DNA of 64,000 nt from positions 62,001 to 126,000 of the forward strand of contig NZ_ML136872.1 in assembly GCF_004009905.1 (NCBI RefSeq), read 5' to 3'. Below the pieces are notes generated by a model that saw nothing but the letters and a program-made list of their open reading frames with translations, was not told where the DNA came from and ran no database searches. Shown one piece after another: positions 10,384-56,455 of the stretch (position 1 is the stretch's first letter; each line of letters begins with the position of its first letter). Both the position numbers and the translations under genes were made by a program. The DNA comes from Lactobacillus xujianguonis (GTDB lineage: Bacteria > Bacillota > Bacilli > Lactobacillales > Lactobacillaceae).

Positions 10384-11019
10384 TTGAATAAGAAAACAAA
10401 AGGTATCATTGTTTGGTGGGTGGAATTTTTAGCCTTCCTAGCAATCTTGTGGGGTGGTCTGCTAGCCCTGAATACTTACGTCTTAGCCAATTGTACAGTT
10501 TCAGGGATTTCAATGGAACCAACCTTTGACAATGGTGAAAGAGTGGTCGCTGTCCGCCATGCGCAATTAAAACGCGGTGAAGTGGTAGTTGTTGATGCAC
10601 CAGATGAGCCAGGTGCGTTGTACATTAAGCGAATTATCGGGATGCCCGGTGATAAGCTCGTCAGCAAGAACAATCAAATTTATATCAATGGCAAAAAAAT
10701 TAATCAGCCGTGGCTAAAAGCTGGTTGGAAACTAACCGATAATGGTGAAGATGGCTTTACTGGAACAAAATACTCACAAACGCAGAACTTTACCATTAGT
10801 TCCTTAGCCAAAACTGCCAATTATCGCCGTTTCTACACGACTAAGCAATTAAAAACCATGCAAAAGACCAATCGTGTTCCGAAAGGTACTTATTTCGTCA
10901 TGGGAGACCACCGGAGCGTTTCAAAAGATAGCCGCTATATTGGTACTATCAAACGAAGCAAAATCGTTGGTGTGGTTAAATTTAGTTACTGGCCATTAAA
11001 TAAGATTAAGTTTTATTAG
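10384..11019 (+). CDS. lepB: Signal peptidase I
   Basis: A 211-residue type I signal peptidase that removes signal peptides of exported proteins at the membrane. One N-terminal membrane helix (about residues 8-32) anchors the extracytoplasmic catalytic domain. The nucleophile Ser43 is in SGISMEPT and the general base Lys82 in YIKRIIGMPGD; GDHR and SKDSRYIG near the C-terminus are further conserved boxes. The start codon is TTG at 10384, 5 nt after AGGTGA, with no nearby ATG in frame. The gene stands alone on the plus strand, and a structured repeat starts 6 bp after its stop. Length is normal for Gram-positive enzymes. Confidence 0.95.
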   Translation: MNKKTKGIIVWWVEFLAFLAILWGGLLALNTYVLANCTVSGISMEPTFDNGERVVAVRHAQLKRGEVVVVDAPDEPGALYIKRIIGMPGDKLVSKNNQIYINGKKINQPWLKAGWKLTDNGEDGFTGTKYSQTQNFTISSLAKTANYRRFYTTKQLKTMQKTNRVPKGTYFVMGDHRSVSKDSRYIGTIKRSKIVGVVKFSYWPLNKIKFY

Positions 11020-11025
11020 AAATCA

Positions 11026-11155
11026 GTGGGAAGAAACTTCTCGAAAAATAGCCGAGATAGTGTAGAACCGAATTAGAATACGTAGTATTCAATTCGTGTT
11101 CGTAACTATAGTCGGCTATTTTTGTTTCTGACCACGACAATTCTGAAATGGAGAA
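11026..11155 (+). repeat. Structured dispersed repeat, copy A
   Basis: A 130-bp element starting 6 bp after the lepB stop; the first 110 bp (11026-11135) form one long hairpin. From outside in: GTGG/CCAC, GAAAC/GTTTC, AAAAATAGCCGA/TCGGCTATTTTT, ATAGT/ACTAT, GAAC/GTTC, CGAATT/AATTCG, GAATAC/GTATTC, terminal loop GTA. Symmetric GTA/GTA internal loops separate two of the helices. Copy B at 17011-17140 has 97 of 110 core bases identical, and 12 of the 13 differences are six compensated base pairs. It could act as RNA in the 3' region of lepB or as a REP-like DNA element. I do not recognise it as a named family. Confidence 0.85.
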
Positions 11156-11177
11156 GACAAAAAAACAAACAGAAAAA

Positions 11178-11256
11178 AGCACCATCTTCCACATAAATGT
11201 GAAAAATGATGCTCCAAACTGACCAGGCTCCCCTCCTAGTCAGTTTAGTTTTTTTC
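11178..11256. terminator. Back-to-back terminators, one with a C-rich loop
   Basis: Two hairpins. The first, 11178-11213, has 17-nt arms (AGCACCATCTTCCACAT / ATGTGAAAAATGATGCT, paired with G-U on the minus-strand RNA) and six T on the minus side, so it ends minus-strand transcription. The second, 11216-11246 (AAACTGACCAGG / CCTAGTCAGTTT, loop CTCCCCT), is followed by AGTTTTTTTC on the plus side, so it ends plus-strand transcription from lepB. The single-stranded CUCCCCU of a plus-strand transcript is complementary to Shine-Dalgarno sequences, as in C-rich-loop regulatory RNAs; that role is inference. Confidence 0.7.
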
Positions 11257-11257
11257 T

Positions 11258-11394
11258 AAAAAAGCAAACAAAACCAGATGCCTACCTCTGATAACTTTAA
11301 GTAAAAGACTTTTTCGCTAACGCGAACGCATGCTATTACCGAATCATCAATCAGAAATTAGTTTCTCATCTGGTTTCATTCCCTTCTTCACAGT
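11258..11394 (-). ncRNA. Candidate stand-alone structured small RNA
   Basis: A minus-strand region of about 137 nt between its own promoter and a T-rich end (TTTTGTTTGCTTTTTT). It folds as a rod over 11271-11376: AAACCAGATG/CATCTGGTTT closes it, then UUUCUGAU/AUCAGAGG, GUAAUAG/CUUUUAC (one mismatch) and a tip hairpin UUCGC-GUUA-GCGAA, separated by internal loops. No convincing coding frame exists and no minus-strand gene follows, so a leader role is unlikely. The rod with bubbles recalls 6S RNA, but it is clearly shorter than known Firmicutes 6S RNAs (about 190 nt), so I leave the family open. Confidence 0.55.
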
Positions 11395-11400
11395 AAATTA

Positions 11401-11428
11401 AGAATATCATACTATTCTTATGTGTCAA
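11401..11428 (-). promoter_or_regulatory. Promoter of the candidate small RNA
   Basis: Perfect -35 TTGACA (11428-11423) and -10 TATTCT (11406-11401) with a 16-bp spacer on the minus strand. It lies downstream of the rplS terminator, so it does not serve the ribosomal operon, and points into the otherwise gene-free stretch. Expected start of the RNA is near 11394. Confidence 0.7.
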
Positions 11429-11454
11429 CCTTTTTTATCAAAAGGGCTGAACTA

Positions 11455-11486
11455 AGCAAAAAGTCAACTCAAAACGAGTCGACTTC
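11455..11486 (-). terminator. Terminator of the ylxM-ffh...rplS operon
   Basis: AAGTCGACTC / GAGTTGACTT with a 5-nt loop on the minus strand, followed by TTTTTG, 24 bp after the rplS stop. Confidence 0.85.
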
Positions 11487-11509
11487 CTGTTGTTACTAAT
11501 TCAATGAAA

Positions 11510-11857
11510 TTAGCGACGTGCTTCTGCAATTCTTGCAGACTTACCCTTACGGTCACGTAAGTAGTAAAGCTTAGCACGACGTACACGACCATGACGTACT
11601 ACGTCAAGCTTAGCAACACGTGGGTCGTTAATTGGGAAGGTACGTTCAACACCAACACCTGAAGCAATTTTACGAACAGTGTAAGTTGCAGCAATGCCAG
11701 TACCCTTCTTCTTAATAACAACACCTTCGAACATCTGAATACGTTCGTGGCTACCTTCAACAACACGTACGTGAACACGAACAGTGTCACCAGCACGGAA
11801 AGCTGGGATATCGTCACGAATTTGTTCTTTAGTTAATTCTGCAATTAATGGATCCAT
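11510..11857 (-). CDS. rplS: 50S ribosomal protein L19
   Basis: A 115-residue L19 ([30 protein letters not shown]...). It binds 23S rRNA near the 30S interface. The start is ATG 11857, after GGAG; an upstream in-frame extension is not protein-like and lies in the leader. The SH3-like core [13 protein letters not shown] and the basic C-terminal region with [14 protein letters not shown] are intact. It is the last gene after trmD, separated by 110 bp that contain an L19-leader-like structure and a possible promoter, so it can be expressed apart from the upstream genes. A terminator follows. Confidence 0.97.
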
Positions 11858-11861
11858 AATA

Positions 11862-11947
11862 TTTTTTCTCCTTCTTCGGCATTCATTCACGCACCAGCGC
11901 CAGCGGAACACCCATAACTTATTTTGTGGCTTTTGCCACGCAGTATA
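11862..11947 (-). promoter_or_regulatory. rplS promoter and L19-leader-like RNA
   Basis: A -10 TATACT (11947-11942) with a weak -35 TTAAGC 18 bp upstream, inside the trmD end, precedes a leader with hairpin GTGGC-AAAA-GCCAC. A GC-rich segment with TTCCGCTGGCGCTGG follows, just before the rplS ribosome binding site. Position and the stem-loop resemble the L19 leader motif of Firmicutes, thought to bind L19 and control rplS. The assignment rests on position and appearance, not on a covariance search. Confidence 0.5.
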
Positions 11948-11967
11948 GTTTATCAGATATCGTCAGC

Positions 11968-12687
11968 TTAAGCAAGGTCTGCTTTGATTTGACGCAAAAT
12001 TTTTTCTTCTTCTGGACTTAAGCTGCGCTTTTCTAACATATCTGGTCGATGAAGATAAGTTGCCTTTAAAGCTTGATAATGACGCCACTCAGCGATCTTT
12101 TGGTGGTTGCCACTAGTTAAAACCTCTGGCACTTTTTGTCCCTCAAAATCAGCTGGACGTGTATATTGGGGATATTCAAGTAAACCATGTGAGAAACTTT
12201 CTTCAACTGGAGACGCCTCATTACCTAAAATCCCTGGAATTAAGCGGACAGTGGCATCGATCATACTCATGGTTGGCAATTCGCCACCAGTGAGCACATA
12301 ATCGCCAATTGAGACCGTTTCATCAGCTAAATCATAAACTCTTTGATCAAAACCTTCATAGTGACCACAGATAAAGGTGAGCTCATCTTCTTTAGCCCAA
12401 TCTTGTGCCATTTGTTCATTGAACGTTTTACCTTGCGGAGCGGTAATAATCACCTTCCCAGTTGAAGGCAAGGAATCCAGTGCCTTTTTAATTGGCATAA
12501 TTTGTAGGACCATGCCAGCACCTCCACCATATGGCGTATCATCAACATGATGATGGACATCCGTCGTAAAGTCACGAAAATTGACTAAGTTTAACTGCCA
12601 CTTATTATCTTCTAGTCCTCTACCAAGCATTGAAACTTGCAGCGGGGTAAACATATCTGGAAAAAGTGTTAAAACATTAATCTTCAT
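11968..12687 (-). CDS. trmD: tRNA (guanine-N1)-methyltransferase (m1G37)
   Basis: A 239-residue TrmD, a knotted SPOUT methyltransferase that makes m1G37 in tRNAs reading CNN codons and prevents +1 frameshifts. The S-adenosylmethionine-binding knot is seen in [12 protein letters not shown] and the following [10 protein letters not shown]; the [13 protein letters not shown] motif and [15 protein letters not shown] are also conserved. Length is normal. It overlaps the end of rimM by 11 bp, indicating coupling, in the widespread order rpsP-rimM-trmD-rplS. Expression follows the upstream ribosomal genes. Confidence 0.98.
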
Positions 12688-13192
12688 CGCGTAACCCCTC
12701 CATTAATTCCACAAACACTTGCTTATGCTCAATATCAACTTTTTTCACTACATCCTTAATGTATGGTAACCAAAATTCTTTGCCGTTTTCTTCTTTAACC
12801 AGCCAAATATCATTTGCACCAGGTGCTTCAATATCAGTTATTTCGCCAATCAAAGAACCAGTTTCATTGTCCAAAACCTGGCAGCCTAAAATATCACGGT
12901 AGTAGTAAGAACCGGCCGGCAATTCCTGTTGATTAGCTTCACTAACGACCAAAGTTTTCCCTTTTAACTTTTCGGCTTGGTCAATATCAGTTATTTCTTC
13001 AAATTGGACTAACCAAAATTGCTTAAAGGGACGCCCACTTTTGACCGTTAAAACTTCTTCAGGTTGATCCTTTAAAGCTAATTCTGAGCCAGCACTAAAG
13101 CGTTCATTGGGAAAGTCCGTAATCACGGCTACTTTAACTTCACCATTTAAACCATGGGTGGTTAAAATTTTTGCGACATCGTAATATTGCAT
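12677..13192 (-). CDS. rimM: Ribosome maturation factor RimM
   Basis: A 171-residue RimM that binds S19 and helps 30S head assembly. The N-terminal beta-barrel starts [19 protein letters not shown] and the C-terminal PRC-barrel contains [30 protein letters not shown] 13192 is the start, 6 nt after AAAGGTG; the longer frame upstream overlaps an intergenic hairpin and is not conserved-looking. Between rpsP and rimM there is a terminator-like hairpin instead of the KH-domain gene found here in many Firmicutes. It overlaps trmD by 11 bp. Confidence 0.96.
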
Positions 13193-13217
13193 TCTTTTCA
13201 CCTTTAAAATTCGTAAG

Positions 13218-13252
13218 AAAAAAAGTTTGAAGTACAAAACTCCAAACTTTTT
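13218..13252 (-). terminator. Internal terminator/attenuator between rpsP and rimM
   Basis: AAAAAGTTTG / CAAACTTTTT with a 13-nt loop, followed by more T (TTTTTTTCTT) on the minus strand, 14 bp after the rpsP stop. It probably lowers rimM-trmD transcription relative to rpsP. The stem is A-T rich, so read-through is likely. Confidence 0.6.
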
Positions 13253-13266
13253 AAGTAATTATTTAA

Positions 13267-13539
13267 TTACTTGTTGTACTTTGCATCGTGCAACTTCTTC
13301 ATAAGGCCAGCACCTGAAAGAAGTGATCTAACAGTGTCTGAAGGTTGAGCACCCTTTTGAAGCCATTCAAAAATCTTGTCTTCTTCAAGCTTCAATTCCT
13401 TTGGTTGTGCAACTGGGTTGTAGTAACCAACTTGTTCGATGTAACGACCATCACGTGGCATACGTGAGTCGGCAACAACGATTCTGTAGAATGGCTTTCT
13501 CTTGGCACCAGCACGGTGCATACGAATTTTAACTGACAT
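13267..13539 (-). CDS. rpsP: 30S ribosomal protein S16
   Basis: A 90-residue S16 with the canonical start [26 protein letters not shown] and [12 protein letters not shown]. It binds 16S rRNA and is needed for 30S assembly. AGGAGG lies 8-13 nt before the ATG. It follows ffh by about 90 bp and precedes rimM, the common order in Firmicutes. The hairpin after its stop suggests that much of the transcript ends here, fitting the higher need for a ribosomal protein than for RimM and TrmD. Confidence 0.97.
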
Positions 13540-13631
13540 AAATTAATTTCCTCCTAAAACTTAACGATTAATAATATACCACCAAAGCAAATGGGTGTAA
13601 AGTGTTTTTCCTTAACAGTTAAAAATATTTT

Positions 13632-15062
13632 TTATGAATGGAATCGTTTCATCTTCTTCATGCGCTTGCGTTTATTCTTCTTGAATTGCTTTCCCATCTT
13701 GCGCATTGCCATCTTAGCCATTGGTGAATTCATTCCTGGCATACCTTGTAACGCCTTAGTATTACCTTTGGTAATCTTGGACATCATGTCGCGGGCCTGC
13801 TTGAACTGCTTAATCATCCGGTTAACTTCAACCACTGGGCGGCCGGAGCCGGCTGCAATTCTACGTCTACGACTAGGATTCAAGATATCTGGATCTTCTC
13901 GTTCTGCTTCGGTCATTGAATAAACGATAGCCTTAGTATGAGCGATTTGTTTTTCATCAACACTTAAATTCTTTAATTGCGGATTGTTGGCCATCCCTGG
14001 GATCATCTTCATGATTTGATCTAGTGGTCCTAATTTTTGCACTTGTTCTAATTGATCAATAAAGTCGTTGAAGTCAAAGGTATTCGCCTTCATCTTTTCA
14101 GCAACTTTTTCAGCTTCTTTAGCATCGTAATCTTGTTGAGCCTTTTCAATCAAGGTCAACATATCACCCATGCCTAAAATTCTTGAAGCCATCCGATCTG
14201 GGTGGAAGTCTTGTAAATCAGTTAACTTTTCCCCTTGACCAGTATAAATGATCGGCTTACCAGTAACGGCTCTAATTGAAAGGGCAGCACCACCACGAGT
14301 ATCACCATCAAGTTTCGTCAAAATGACGCCAGTCACATCAAGCCGTTCGTCAAAGCCTTTAGCGACATCTGTAGCAGCTTGACCAGTCATGGCATCAACA
14401 ACTAATAGAATGTTATCGGGAAGAGCAACTTCTTTTACTCGTTCCAATTCTTCCATTAATGGTTCGTCAATTTCAAGTCGACCGGCCGTATCAATAATGA
14501 TATAGTCATTCTTATTTTTATCAGCTTCTGCCAACCCATCTTCAACGATCTTAGCGACATCTTTTTCATCAGCTTCGTTAAAGACAGGCACGTCTAATTG
14601 TTGACCAATTTGCTTCAACTGATCAATGGCAGCTGGACGGTAAATATCGCCAGCAATTAATAATGGGCGCGCCTTTTCAGTTTGTTGTAAATGATAGGCA
14701 AGTTTACCAACAGTTGTCGTTTTACCAGTACCTTGTAAACCAACCATCATGATAATTGTTGGGATATGCTTAGACTTGTTTAAGCCAACGGCGGTTTCAC
14801 CCATCATCTTAGTCAATTCTTCATTAACAATCTTAATGACCTGTTGACCTGGGTTTAAACTTTCTTGAACTTCCTTACCCAGCGCTTCTTGCTTGATTTT
14901 CTTAATAAAGTCCTTAACGACTTTAAAGTTAACATCGGCTTCTAATAAAGCTAACCGGATTTCACGACTGGCTTTATTGATATCTTCTTCCGAAATCTTG
15001 CCTTTACCAGTTAAATTTTTTAATGCTTTTTGAATTCGTTCACTTAAATTTTCAAAAGCCAT
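13632..15062 (-). CDS. ffh: Signal recognition particle protein Ffh
   Basis: A 476-residue SRP GTPase that binds 4.5S RNA and signal sequences and docks on FtsY. The N domain spans about residues 1-90 and the G domain about 95-295, with P-loop GLQGTGKTTT (108-117), DTAGR and TKLDGDTRGG. The methionine-rich M domain follows, with the RNA-binding GSGRPVVEVNRMIKQF. The C-terminus is very basic (KKNKRKRMKKMKR). It lies 3 bp after ylxM. The usual neighbour ftsY is also in this window but separated by about 3.3 kb of other genes. Confidence 0.98.
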   Translation of the reverse strand: MAFENLSERIQKALKNLTGKGKISEEDINKASREIRLALLEADVNFKVVKDFIKKIKQEALGKEVQESLNPGQQVIKIVNEELTKMMGETAVGLNKSKHIPTIIMMVGLQGTGKTTTVGKLAYHLQQTEKARPLLIAGDIYRPAAIDQLKQIGQQLDVPVFNEADEKDVAKIVEDGLAEADKNKNDYIIIDTAGRLEIDEPLMEELERVKEVALPDNILLVVDAMTGQAATDVAKGFDERLDVTGVILTKLDGDTRGGAALSIRAVTGKPIIYTGQGEKLTDLQDFHPDRMASRILGMGDMLTLIEKAQQDYDAKEAEKVAEKMKANTFDFNDFIDQLEQVQKLGPLDQIMKMIPGMANNPQLKNLSVDEKQIAHTKAIVYSMTEAEREDPDILNPSRRRRIAAGSGRPVVEVNRMIKQFKQARDMMSKITKGNTKALQGMPGMNSPMAKMAMRKMGKQFKKNKRKRMKKMKRFHS

Positions 15063-15065
15063 GGG

Positions 15066-15407
15066 TTATTCTCCCCTCATCTTATTCAACAATTTGACTA
15101 ATTCTGCTTTAGCCACTTGTTGATCATTATTATCAATTGCTAATACTGCATCGGCAAGACTATTTTCAATCTTGTCATAATCTTGCTTCATATGCAGTTT
15201 ACTTTCATAATTCTCAAGGATCTTACTTGAGCGTTTTAAATTATCATAGACAGCTTGCCGCGAGACTTCATGATTAGCAGCAATCTCACCTAGTGAAAGA
15301 TCATTATAATAGTAATCTTCAAAGTAATCTTGCTGACCTTGCGTAAGCAAGCTGCCATAGTAGGCATATAAATCGCCTAATTTTTCATTCTTTGTTAGTT
15401 CATCCAT
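15066..15407 (-). CDS. ylxM: YlxM/p13-like SRP-associated helix-turn-helix protein
   Basis: A 113-residue UPF0122 family protein with a sigma-4-like helix-turn-helix (DLSLGEIAANHEVSRQAVYDNLKR, roughly residues 36-59). The gene almost always sits directly before ffh, here 3 bp away. Work in streptococci and clostridia links YlxM to modulation of SRP, though the mechanism is only partly known. It has the typical length. It is the first gene of the ylxM-ffh-rpsP cluster; no clear promoter was identified in the 150 bp shared with the divergent permease gene. Confidence 0.93.
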   Translation of the reverse strand: MDELTKNEKLGDLYAYYGSLLTQGQQDYFEDYYYNDLSLGEIAANHEVSRQAVYDNLKRSSKILENYESKLHMKQDYDKIENSLADAVLAIDNNDQQVAKAELVKLLNKMRGE

Positions 15408-15507
15408 TTAAGTTTCACCGTTTTTAAGTATAGCAAAAATCCCCTCTTTTTAGAATTGACTACGCCTAATTTCATTGTTAAAATGAGTTGATTTTTACTT
15501 TTATTTT

Positions 15508-15536
15508 TTAAGTTACTTCTAATTTCATGATATAGT
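15508..15536 (+). promoter_or_regulatory. Promoter of the amino-acid permease
   Basis: TTAAGT (15508-15513) and TATAGT (15531-15536) with a 17-bp spacer and a TG one base before the -10 (extended -10). It lies 23 bp before the GTG start. Confidence 0.55.
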
Positions 15537-15559
15537 AGTGTACAAGGATTTGAAACATT

Positions 15560-16990
15560 GTGAATCTTTTTCAAAAGATGAATCGAAAAGAAGATCCACG
15601 TGTCTATGAGAATAAGGATGGACATTTAGTGCGATCTTTAAAAGTAAAAGATATTTTAGCTCTAGGTGTGGGAACCATTGTCTCCGCCTCAATTTTTACT
15701 TTACCTGGTGAAGTAGCGGCGATGCATACTGGTCCAGCGGTTGCAATTTCCTTTATTTTAGCTGCAGTTGCGGCAGGGTTAGTAGCCTTTGCTTATGCAG
15801 AAATGGCGGCAGCAATGCCTTTTGCCGGATCAGCCTACTCTTGGATCAACGTCATTTTTGGTGAATTCTGGGGCTGGGTTGCTGGCTGGGCCTTGCTTGC
15901 CGAGTACTTCCTTGCCTTAGCCTTTGTTGGTTCTGGACTTTCAGCTAACTTGAGAGCCTTAATTGCTCCGCTAGGCTGGAAATTACCAGCTGCGCTTTCC
16001 AATGCTTTTGGGACTGATGGCGGAGTCATTGATTTGATCTCTGTGCTCTCAATTGCCTTAGTTGGAATTTTAATTTCAGTTGGTGTAGGCCGGGTGGCAC
16101 GAGTTGAAAATGCCTTAGTTGTTTTAAAAGTATTTGCAATTCTACTCTTCGTCGTAGTGGGTGCCACTGCTTTAAAGGCTGGCAATTACCAACCTTTCAT
16201 CCCTAAGTACCACCCAACTGCCAATGGTCCGTTTGGTGGTTGGCAAGGGATCTATGCCGGGGTAGCCATGATTTTCCTATCATATATTGGCTTTGATTCA
16301 GTGGCCGCTAATTCCGCTGAAGCGATTGAACCTGAAAAGACCATGCCACGAGGAATCATTGGTTCTTTAGTTATTGCAGTTGTCTTATTCGTCAGTGTTA
16401 GTTTAGTTCTGGTAGGAATTGTTCCTTATCAAGAATACGCTGGTAACGCTGAACCAGTTGGTTTAGCCTTAAGAGCTGCTAATCATCCAATTGTGGCTGT
16501 TGTGGTACAAACAATTGCAGTCTTGGGAATGTTCACGGCATTAATCGGAATGAGTATGGCTGGTTCAAGACTGATCTATTCCTTCGGTCGTGATGGGATG
16601 TTACCTAAGGCTTTAGGTAAGCTTGATGAAAATCACCGTCCAAACAACGCTGTCTTAACTATTACCTTAGCAGCAATTATTATTGGGACGATCTTTCCCT
16701 TCTCAGCTTTATCACAATTGATTTCCGCTGGGACCTTAATTGCCTTCATGTTTGTTTCCTTAGCGATTTATCCATTAAGAAAACGAGAGGGGCAAGACAT
16801 CGTTGATCCATCTTTCAAGATGCCACTTTTCCCAGTTTTACCTTTCTTAGCCTTTCTTGCATCTTTAATTGTCTTCTTAGGCTTGGACAAGCAAGCTAAG
16901 TTATATGCTGGTATTTGGTTTATTTTAGGAGTTGTCATCTACCTAGTTTATGGTGTGCGGCATTCTAGCTTAAACAAAAAAGAAAAATAA
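15560..16990 (+). CDS. Amino-acid permease, APC superfamily
   Basis: A 476-residue transporter with about 12 predicted membrane helices. The APC signature is near the N-terminus (DILALGVGTIVSASIFTLPG, with the helix-1 glycine-rich break), followed by FAYAEMAAAMPFAGSAYSW and, in helix 6, IFLSYIGFDSVAANSAEAIEPEKTMPRGI. These match cationic/neutral amino-acid permeases of the CAT/YfnA branch, which exchange or import amino acids. The substrate cannot be set from sequence. The start is GTG 15560, 11 nt after AAGGA; ATG 15578 has no ribosome binding site. It is monocistronic on the plus strand, followed by copy B of the structured repeat and a terminator. Confidence 0.88.
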   Translation: MNLFQKMNRKEDPRVYENKDGHLVRSLKVKDILALGVGTIVSASIFTLPGEVAAMHTGPAVAISFILAAVAAGLVAFAYAEMAAAMPFAGSAYSWINVIFGEFWGWVAGWALLAEYFLALAFVGSGLSANLRALIAPLGWKLPAALSNAFGTDGGVIDLISVLSIALVGILISVGVGRVARVENALVVLKVFAILLFVVVGATALKAGNYQPFIPKYHPTANGPFGGWQGIYAGVAMIFLSYIGFDSVAANSAEAIEPEKTMPRGIIGSLVIAVVLFVSVSLVLVGIVPYQEYAGNAEPVGLALRAANHPIVAVVVQTIAVLGMFTALIGMSMAGSRLIYSFGRDGMLPKALGKLDENHRPNNAVLTITLAAIIIGTIFPFSALSQLISAGTLIAFMFVSLAIYPLRKREGQDIVDPSFKMPLFPVLPFLAFLASLIVFLGLDKQAKLYAGIWFILGVVIYLVYGVRHSSLNKKEK

Positions 16991-17010
16991 TTTTAGCTAT
17001 TAAAAAGTGA

Positions 17011-17140
17011 GTGGGAAGAAACTTCTCGAGAAATAGCCGAGATAGTGTAGAACTAAATTAAAGCACGCAGTGCTTAATTTATGTTCGTAACTATAGTCGG
17101 CTATTTCTGTTTCTGACCACGATAATTCTGGAATGGAGAA
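17011..17140 (+). repeat. Structured dispersed repeat, copy B
   Basis: Second copy of the element at 11026, starting 21 bp after the permease stop, in the same orientation and the same core length (110 bp). Compared with copy A the inner helix reads TAAATT/AATTTA and AAGCAC/GTGCTT with loop GCA, and the outer helix has G-C instead of A-T at one step. All paired changes are compensated. The 20 bp after the core (GATAATTCTGGAATGGAGAA) match copy A at 18 positions and can form a small ATTCT/AGAAT hairpin. Both copies lie directly 3' of plus-strand genes facing minus-strand operons. Confidence 0.85.
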
Positions 17141-17143
17141 TGC

Positions 17144-17183
17144 AAAGAGTCTGGGAAAGTTATTTCCCAGACTCTTTTTCTTT
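17144..17183 (+). terminator. Bidirectional terminator between permease and pepD
   Basis: AAAGAGTCTGGGAAA / TTTCCCAGACTCTTT with a 4-nt loop and T-rich plus side. It ends the permease transcript (including the repeat) and lies 13 bp beyond the convergent pepD stop. Confidence 0.92.
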
Positions 17184-56336: not shown

Positions 56337-56455
56337 CTCCGAAAAAAATACTTAGACTCGCCAAATGAGGTGTCTTCTTCGTCGAAGAACTTCTAACCTC
56401 AAATTGTGCGGTTGCAGATGTGGAGGTCTCCACAAATACAACTACTATAGTCTAC
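56337..56455 (-). promoter_or_regulatory. rplU promoter and L21-leader-like RNA
   Basis: -10 TATAGT (56449-56444) starts a leader of about 110 nt. It contains GTGGAGACCTCCAC (perfect hairpin), CTGCAACC, and a strong stem TTCTTCG/CGAAGAA, before the rplU ribosome binding site. A -35 TTTTTG lies 17 bp further upstream. Position and the GTGGAG...CTGCAACC pattern resemble the Firmicutes L21 leader, which may let free L21 repress its own gene. No covariance search was possible. Confidence 0.65.

Follow-up and report, generated by a model that had tools for sequence, protein, structure and literature searches.

Lactobacillus xujianguonis carries a family of short palindromic repeats, two copies of which lie in the window, the 64,000-nt stretch of DNA analysed here. 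We interpret the repeat as a non-autonomous, non-coding interspersed element that inserts immediately behind stop codons and replaces the intrinsic terminator of the gene it follows, and we give this reading a probability of roughly 0.55. According to it, either the hairpin, through a GC-rich inner stem and the U-rich stretch UAUUUCUGUUUCU, or a terminator attached behind it would end the transcription of the upstream gene. The repeat unit would be mobile and would have passed between species. Its arms would stay complementary mainly by template switching, in which one arm is recopied from its partner, or by exchange between copies; selection for the hairpin could act alongside such recopying, or not.

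The repeat unit and its two copies in the window

The preliminary description had reported a two-copy element, and in the window both copies are indeed 110 nt long (Table 1). Its count of 13 differences between them was exact: one lies in the triloop (T/C), and the other 12 make up six double changes that keep pairing. An ORF placement check agreed that both copies lie 3' of plus-strand genes, with minus-strand genes facing them. Genome-wide, the number two did not stand: there are 16 full copies in the host, in addition to deleted forms, and six in Candidatus Lactobacillus pullistercoris (G002). The element boundaries were drawn too narrowly as well. The similarity between copies runs beyond the 110-nt end into a conserved 23-nt tail (GAYAATTCTGGAATGGAGAATGC) and then, at many copies, into a terminator; this tail and terminator module had been missed, as had the other copies and the replacement of terminators in relatives. 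The whole unit comprises the 110-nt hairpin, the 23-nt tail, and often an intrinsic terminator, and measures about 140–185 bp.

Table 1. Positions of the two repeat copies, their associated parts, and the genes upstream of them in the window.
Feature	Position	Strand	Remark
Repeat copy 1, 110-nt imperfect hairpin with GNA-type triloop	11026..11135	+	6 nt past the stop of the signal peptidase-like gene
Conserved 3' tail, copy 1	11136..11158	+	no plus-strand terminator found in the next stretch
Repeat copy 2, 110-nt imperfect hairpin	17011..17120	+	20 nt past the stop of the APC-type permease gene
Conserved 3' tail, copy 2	17121..17143	+	
Intrinsic terminator (predicted) after copy 2	17144..17177	+	other copies have the same terminator type behind them
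Putative signal peptidase I-like gene, upstream of copy 1	10384..11019	+	named from its own sequence; plain terminator behind it in relatives
Putative APC-type amino-acid permease-like gene, upstream of copy 2	15560..16990	+	named from its own sequence

The repeat folds into one long imperfect hairpin. Its outer stem consists of GTGG..CCAC and AGAAAC/GTTTCT, with a 2×2 loop; most copies have GA/GA in this loop, and some (e.g., L017, L022, and L025) have Watson–Crick pairs there. The further parts are a 6-nt bulge on the 5' side, a 12-pair stem, a 5-pair stem, a 3×3 loop, an apical stem, and the triloop. Most copies start with GTGG; GTGA and GTGT occur too. By eye, the inner stem is GC-rich and the U-rich stretch lies behind it in the 3' arm, the hairpin's own U-tract being mediocre. 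The RNA fold of copy 2 reached −49.5 kcal/mol (z = −8.3) and the DNA fold of copy 1 reached −29.7 (z = −9.1), and none of 200 shuffles was equally stable in either case. Pairing of the 5' bulge (TTCTC) with the tail (GAGAA) as a pseudoknot was considered by eye and dropped; it was compensated in some copies (TACTC/GAGTA) and mismatched in others.

Two further features of the window were noted. At about 11165–11430 on the minus strand, a non-coding block that is also present in G021 and G026 separates copy 1 from the 3' end of an rplS-like gene. It contains a promoter-like site (11428–11401) and a terminator-like site (11215–11176) on that strand, and it is a possible candidate for a small RNA gene of about 220 nt; the Rfam matches in it were below gathering scores. 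An L21_leader (RF00559) at 56344–56423 on the minus strand, with 62.3 bits, was the sole match in the window above the gathering score.

Gene ends, terminators, and repeat-free sites in relatives

Placement was counted for 25 copies, using ORFs of at least 60 aa picked by length. Twenty-one copies begin 0–22 nt past the stop codon of a same-strand ORF. The remaining four (L014, L030, L031, and L032) are antisense to both neighbours, each lying past the end of an opposite-strand ORF by 66–78 nt. Downstream, 14 copies are followed by an ORF on the opposite strand, ten by one on the same strand, and one by no ORF; ten copies sit between convergent ORFs. The genes upstream appear unrelated to one another. 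For five copies (L017, L020, L021, L023, and L033), the role of a strong terminator fits badly, since a same-strand ORF begins 19–76 nt downstream, unless promoters lie between. Two arrangements were observed besides. At L025 (2304–2609), two convergent copies, each behind its own gene, flank one common terminator. At L033 (about 2318–2800, G002), the repeat stands directly before a short ORF that resembles the 3' portion of a gene for an oligopeptide-binding protein, much as a deletion ending at the repeat would leave it.

A plus-strand terminator within 100 nt after the hairpin was found by script in 12 of the 25 copies, and eight of these terminators have the core CT(G/A)GGAAA in common. 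The script found none in the other 13; among these, one can be seen by eye in each of the deleted forms L027 and L028, and L014 has one on the other strand only. The strict terminator pattern TCTGGGAA..TTCCCAGA occurs at seven places in the host, four of them directly 3' of a repeat, and at three in G002, two of them in that position; there was no occurrence in G021. The four lone CTGGG-type terminators were examined and are without a repeat. This terminator type is thus tied to the repeat (6/10 places adjoin one) and not exclusive to it (4/10 are lone). We set aside the view that the individual genes have the CTGGG terminator as their native one, given that six of ten places adjoin the repeat and that the ldh gene of relatives has a different terminator. 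Since the terminator also occurs away from repeats, the repeat may prefer to insert beside terminators of this type. L085 and L143 have a plain terminator instead of the hairpin body, immediately upstream of the repeat's 3' end. This suggests that a plain terminator and the hairpin body may be interchangeable.

The search for empty sites, proposed in the preliminary description for related strains, was made in related species and was fruitful at three genes. The greA locus was present in 11 of the 12 relatives searched; all 11 had a plain terminator there and were 109–121 nt shorter than the carrier. The host has the repeat at this site, and the same script found no terminator in it. Behind lepB, the host has the repeat and all four relatives inspected have a plain terminator. 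In two of these four, the hairpin ranked best by the script lies further downstream than an earlier one, which can be seen next to the stop codon. At ldh, G002 is the repeat carrier, and a terminator was found by script in nine of 11 relatives; in the other two (G030 and the host), the inverted repeat of this terminator can be recognised by eye, there with a mismatch or a longer loop. In G002, the inverted repeat of the relatives is gone, and the repeat and a different, CTGGG terminator are found instead. No clear empty site emerged at APC/pepD or pepC, which were uninformative because gene order or terminators vary among all species. As judged from terminators predicted in the sequence, the repeat stands in place of the ordinary terminator at three orthologous sites (lepB, greA, and ldh). 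Here an interspersed repeat would have replaced terminators in nature.

A variant of this process would be a mobile terminator cassette, which spreads by swapping its hairpin for the resident terminator hairpin via the A- and T-tracts common to all terminators. Its palindrome would be kept by arm-to-arm copying, and perfect covariation would arise with little or no RNA selection. We consider this version rather doubtful.

Distribution, putative mobility, and covariation of the stems

In the search of Lactobacillus genomes that had been called for at the outset, a covariance model built from 22 copies was run on 75 genomes of the genus. It returned these 16 copies in the host and six in G002, so that two of 75 genomes are carriers; the other 73 gave no match at an E value of 0.01, with stricter filters applying above 40 genomes. 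A blastn search over 60 relatives yielded the same two carriers. In a family-wide sample of 301 genomes, the repeat was seen in the host only, with at most two candidates per genome scored among the matches listed, G002 being either not drawn or missed. The search of the host DNA gave 20 matches, two of which were listed copies matched a second time on their self-complementary strand. Internally deleted or partial forms were seen at L027, L028, L035, L084, L085, L086, L143, L144, L145, and L146. There was no match to the repeat in phages and plasmids (distant blastn) or in viral contigs (exact pattern).

A three-gene tree of 12 species placed the host with G021 (0.989) and G002 with G026 (0.961), so the carriers are not sisters; neither tree partner had a repeat match. 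The best identity between copies of the two species was 95%, compared with 84% for pepD, 86% for ldh, and 88% for greA between the carriers. The fetched loci of both species shared no flanks at matches over 180 nt. The carriers not being sisters, the copy identity exceeding the gene identity, and the lack of common flanks point to a transfer between species, probably followed by independent spread. Together with the non-carrier relatives, the two carriers offer a tractable system for studying repeat movement and the ending of transcription.

The means of movement was considered next to these data. The preliminary description had mentioned a REP/MITE-like hairpin mobile element; the interspersed hairpin holds, but the host has no match to the Y1 transposase family (PF01797). 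A DNA hairpin moved single-stranded by a Y1/HUH-type enzyme, like REP/REPIN with RAYT, would agree with an imperfect, extragenic palindrome 3' of genes, with the compensated arms, and with the stability of the DNA fold (z = −9.1). Given a host genome that is 99% complete and has no PF01797 match, a single partial match (73 aa) in G002, and full matches in the non-carriers G021 and G027, we find this route very unlikely; no copy beside a transposase gene was noticed among the fetched loci. It is also quite unlikely, if less so, that the repeat is a cut-and-paste MITE whose outer stem provides terminal repeats for an IS transposase out of view. Size, AT-richness, terminal complementarity, A-rich flanks on both sides, and patchy distribution suit a MITE. 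The terminal stem plus tail is asymmetric, however, homology searches with the whole repeat found no IS with such ends, and no clean target-site duplication was seen by eye, the A-rich flanks making any duplication ambiguous.

The compensated differences between the two window copies had been taken to exceed random drift and to argue for selection on structure. Across the 22 copies, 98.4% of the 944 stem cells hold standard pairs, and pairing drops to 35–47% in slid structures. Further copies with uncompensated stem changes, which would have spoken against a structure, contribute to a small extent only (15/944 stem cells not standard). Double changes were seen in 18 of 43 pairs (shuffle mean, 7.2) and in 66 cells (shuffle mean, 17.8), and none of 500 shuffles reached either value. 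Further standard pair types were not in excess (24 compared with 23.1 in shuffles, reached by 168/500). Parsimony on a FastTree tree gave 28 branch events that hit both partners, 27 of them pair-keeping, and 19 that hit one side only, whereas the null had a mean of 3.7 and a maximum of 10 in 1000 trials; in these counts the linked pairs are not independent, and the copy tree is uncertain owing to recombination between copies. A trace of recombination was observed by eye in the apical stem of L031 and L032, where the 5' arm of one haplotype meets the 3' arm of another and mismatches result. Independent drift is rejected, the double changes lying well above the shuffles.

The other half of the argument held in part. 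The structure is real and its compensation exceeds chance, but selection on RNA is not the sole alternative to drift. Selection on plus-strand RNA predicts an excess of G-U pairs. The non-Watson–Crick stem cells comprise four G-T, seven A-C, and eight others among the 944, and with G-U no commoner than A-C, nothing points to wobble pairing in a plus-strand RNA. Twelve of the 27 pair-keeping double events are transversions on both sides, which cannot pass through G-U. Three apical pairs change as one in eight of 22 copies, and the six double changes in the window form a few linked blocks. Template switching, exchange between copies, or a constraint on the DNA hairpin explains the covariation at least as well as RNA selection does.

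These counts bear directly on the possibility that the repeat is a structured RNA under selection, i.e., a 3' UTR element or a small RNA that binds a protein or ligand or protects the transcript, its compensatory changes being fixed by RNA selection. The excess of double-change pairs (18 compared with 7.2; 0/500) suits such an RNA, as do the fixed asymmetric loops (the 6-nt bulge, the 3×3 loop, the GA/GA 2×2 loop, and the GNA-type triloop) and the strand bias towards the upstream gene (21/25). The wobble counts and the double events that bypass G-U are at odds with it, and so are the unrelated genes in front of the copies, the restriction to two of 75 genus genomes, the several internally deleted copies, and the lack of an Rfam match above the gathering score. 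On balance, an RNA under selection seems unlikely. The Rfam search, suggested together with the remark that no named family was known, bore that remark out. Over the whole window no repeat match exceeded the gathering score, and the overlapping matches at 10980–11520 were all below it. In 11 of the 22 fetched loci, searched with E up to 1, MIR8001, His_leader, and Spy1186876 overlapped the repeat or the terminator, all below gathering scores.

Template switching can produce multi-base compensatory changes in one event, without G-U intermediates (PMC8794818). The likeness to the hairpins treated there lies in these multi-base changes, for which no G-U intermediates are needed. In that study, RNA genes are reconstructed by a four-point method, whereas we propose the process for a repeat, from counts of stem changes. 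For RNA discovery, the covariation of this repeat is also a warning that a palindrome present in many copies can yield overwhelming covariation statistics and yet wobble counts without a sign of selection on the transcribed strand.

Comparison with known repeats

Among the papers listed in literature searches, no Lactobacillus repeat of this kind could be recognised from a title or abstract opening. REP/REPIN with RAYT are defined by the head GT(A/G)G, a short palindrome, and the flanking of a rayt gene (PMC2817692). They resemble the Lactobacillus repeat as extragenic imperfect palindromes with complementary stem changes (PMC2817692). At the foot of the Lactobacillus hairpin, most copies have GTGG and others GTGA or GTGT. 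This hairpin is about four times longer than a REP, and its host has no Y1 transposase match (PF01797).

BOX and RUP of S. pneumoniae are tightly folded intergenic elements of roughly 100–200 bp, enriched between convergent genes and regarded as parasitic (PMC3049150). Their terminal repeats resemble those of an IS, whereas no such IS was found for the Lactobacillus repeat; BOX is also modular with a repeatable boxB, which has no counterpart here. SPRITE is described as a terminator-like small interspersed pneumococcal repeat near gene 3' ends, perhaps co-opted as a terminator, and consists of an 18-bp duplex with a long U-rich tract behind it (PMC3049150). It shares with the Lactobacillus repeat the small size, the interspersed occurrence in one or a few related species, the terminator-like character, and the position near gene 3' ends, which in our case applies to the 21 of 25 copies within 22 nt of a same-strand stop. 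The difference lies in the 110-nt multi-helix hairpin, the tail, and the often separate terminator, and the two are likened in kind, by description, not by sequence. We regard the terminator-like repeat as a new family among small interspersed repeats, named repeats having been checked through Rfam, phages, plasmids, viral contigs, and genomes, and SPRITE by description only. By analogy, its nearest kind would be BOX, RUP, and above all SPRITE.
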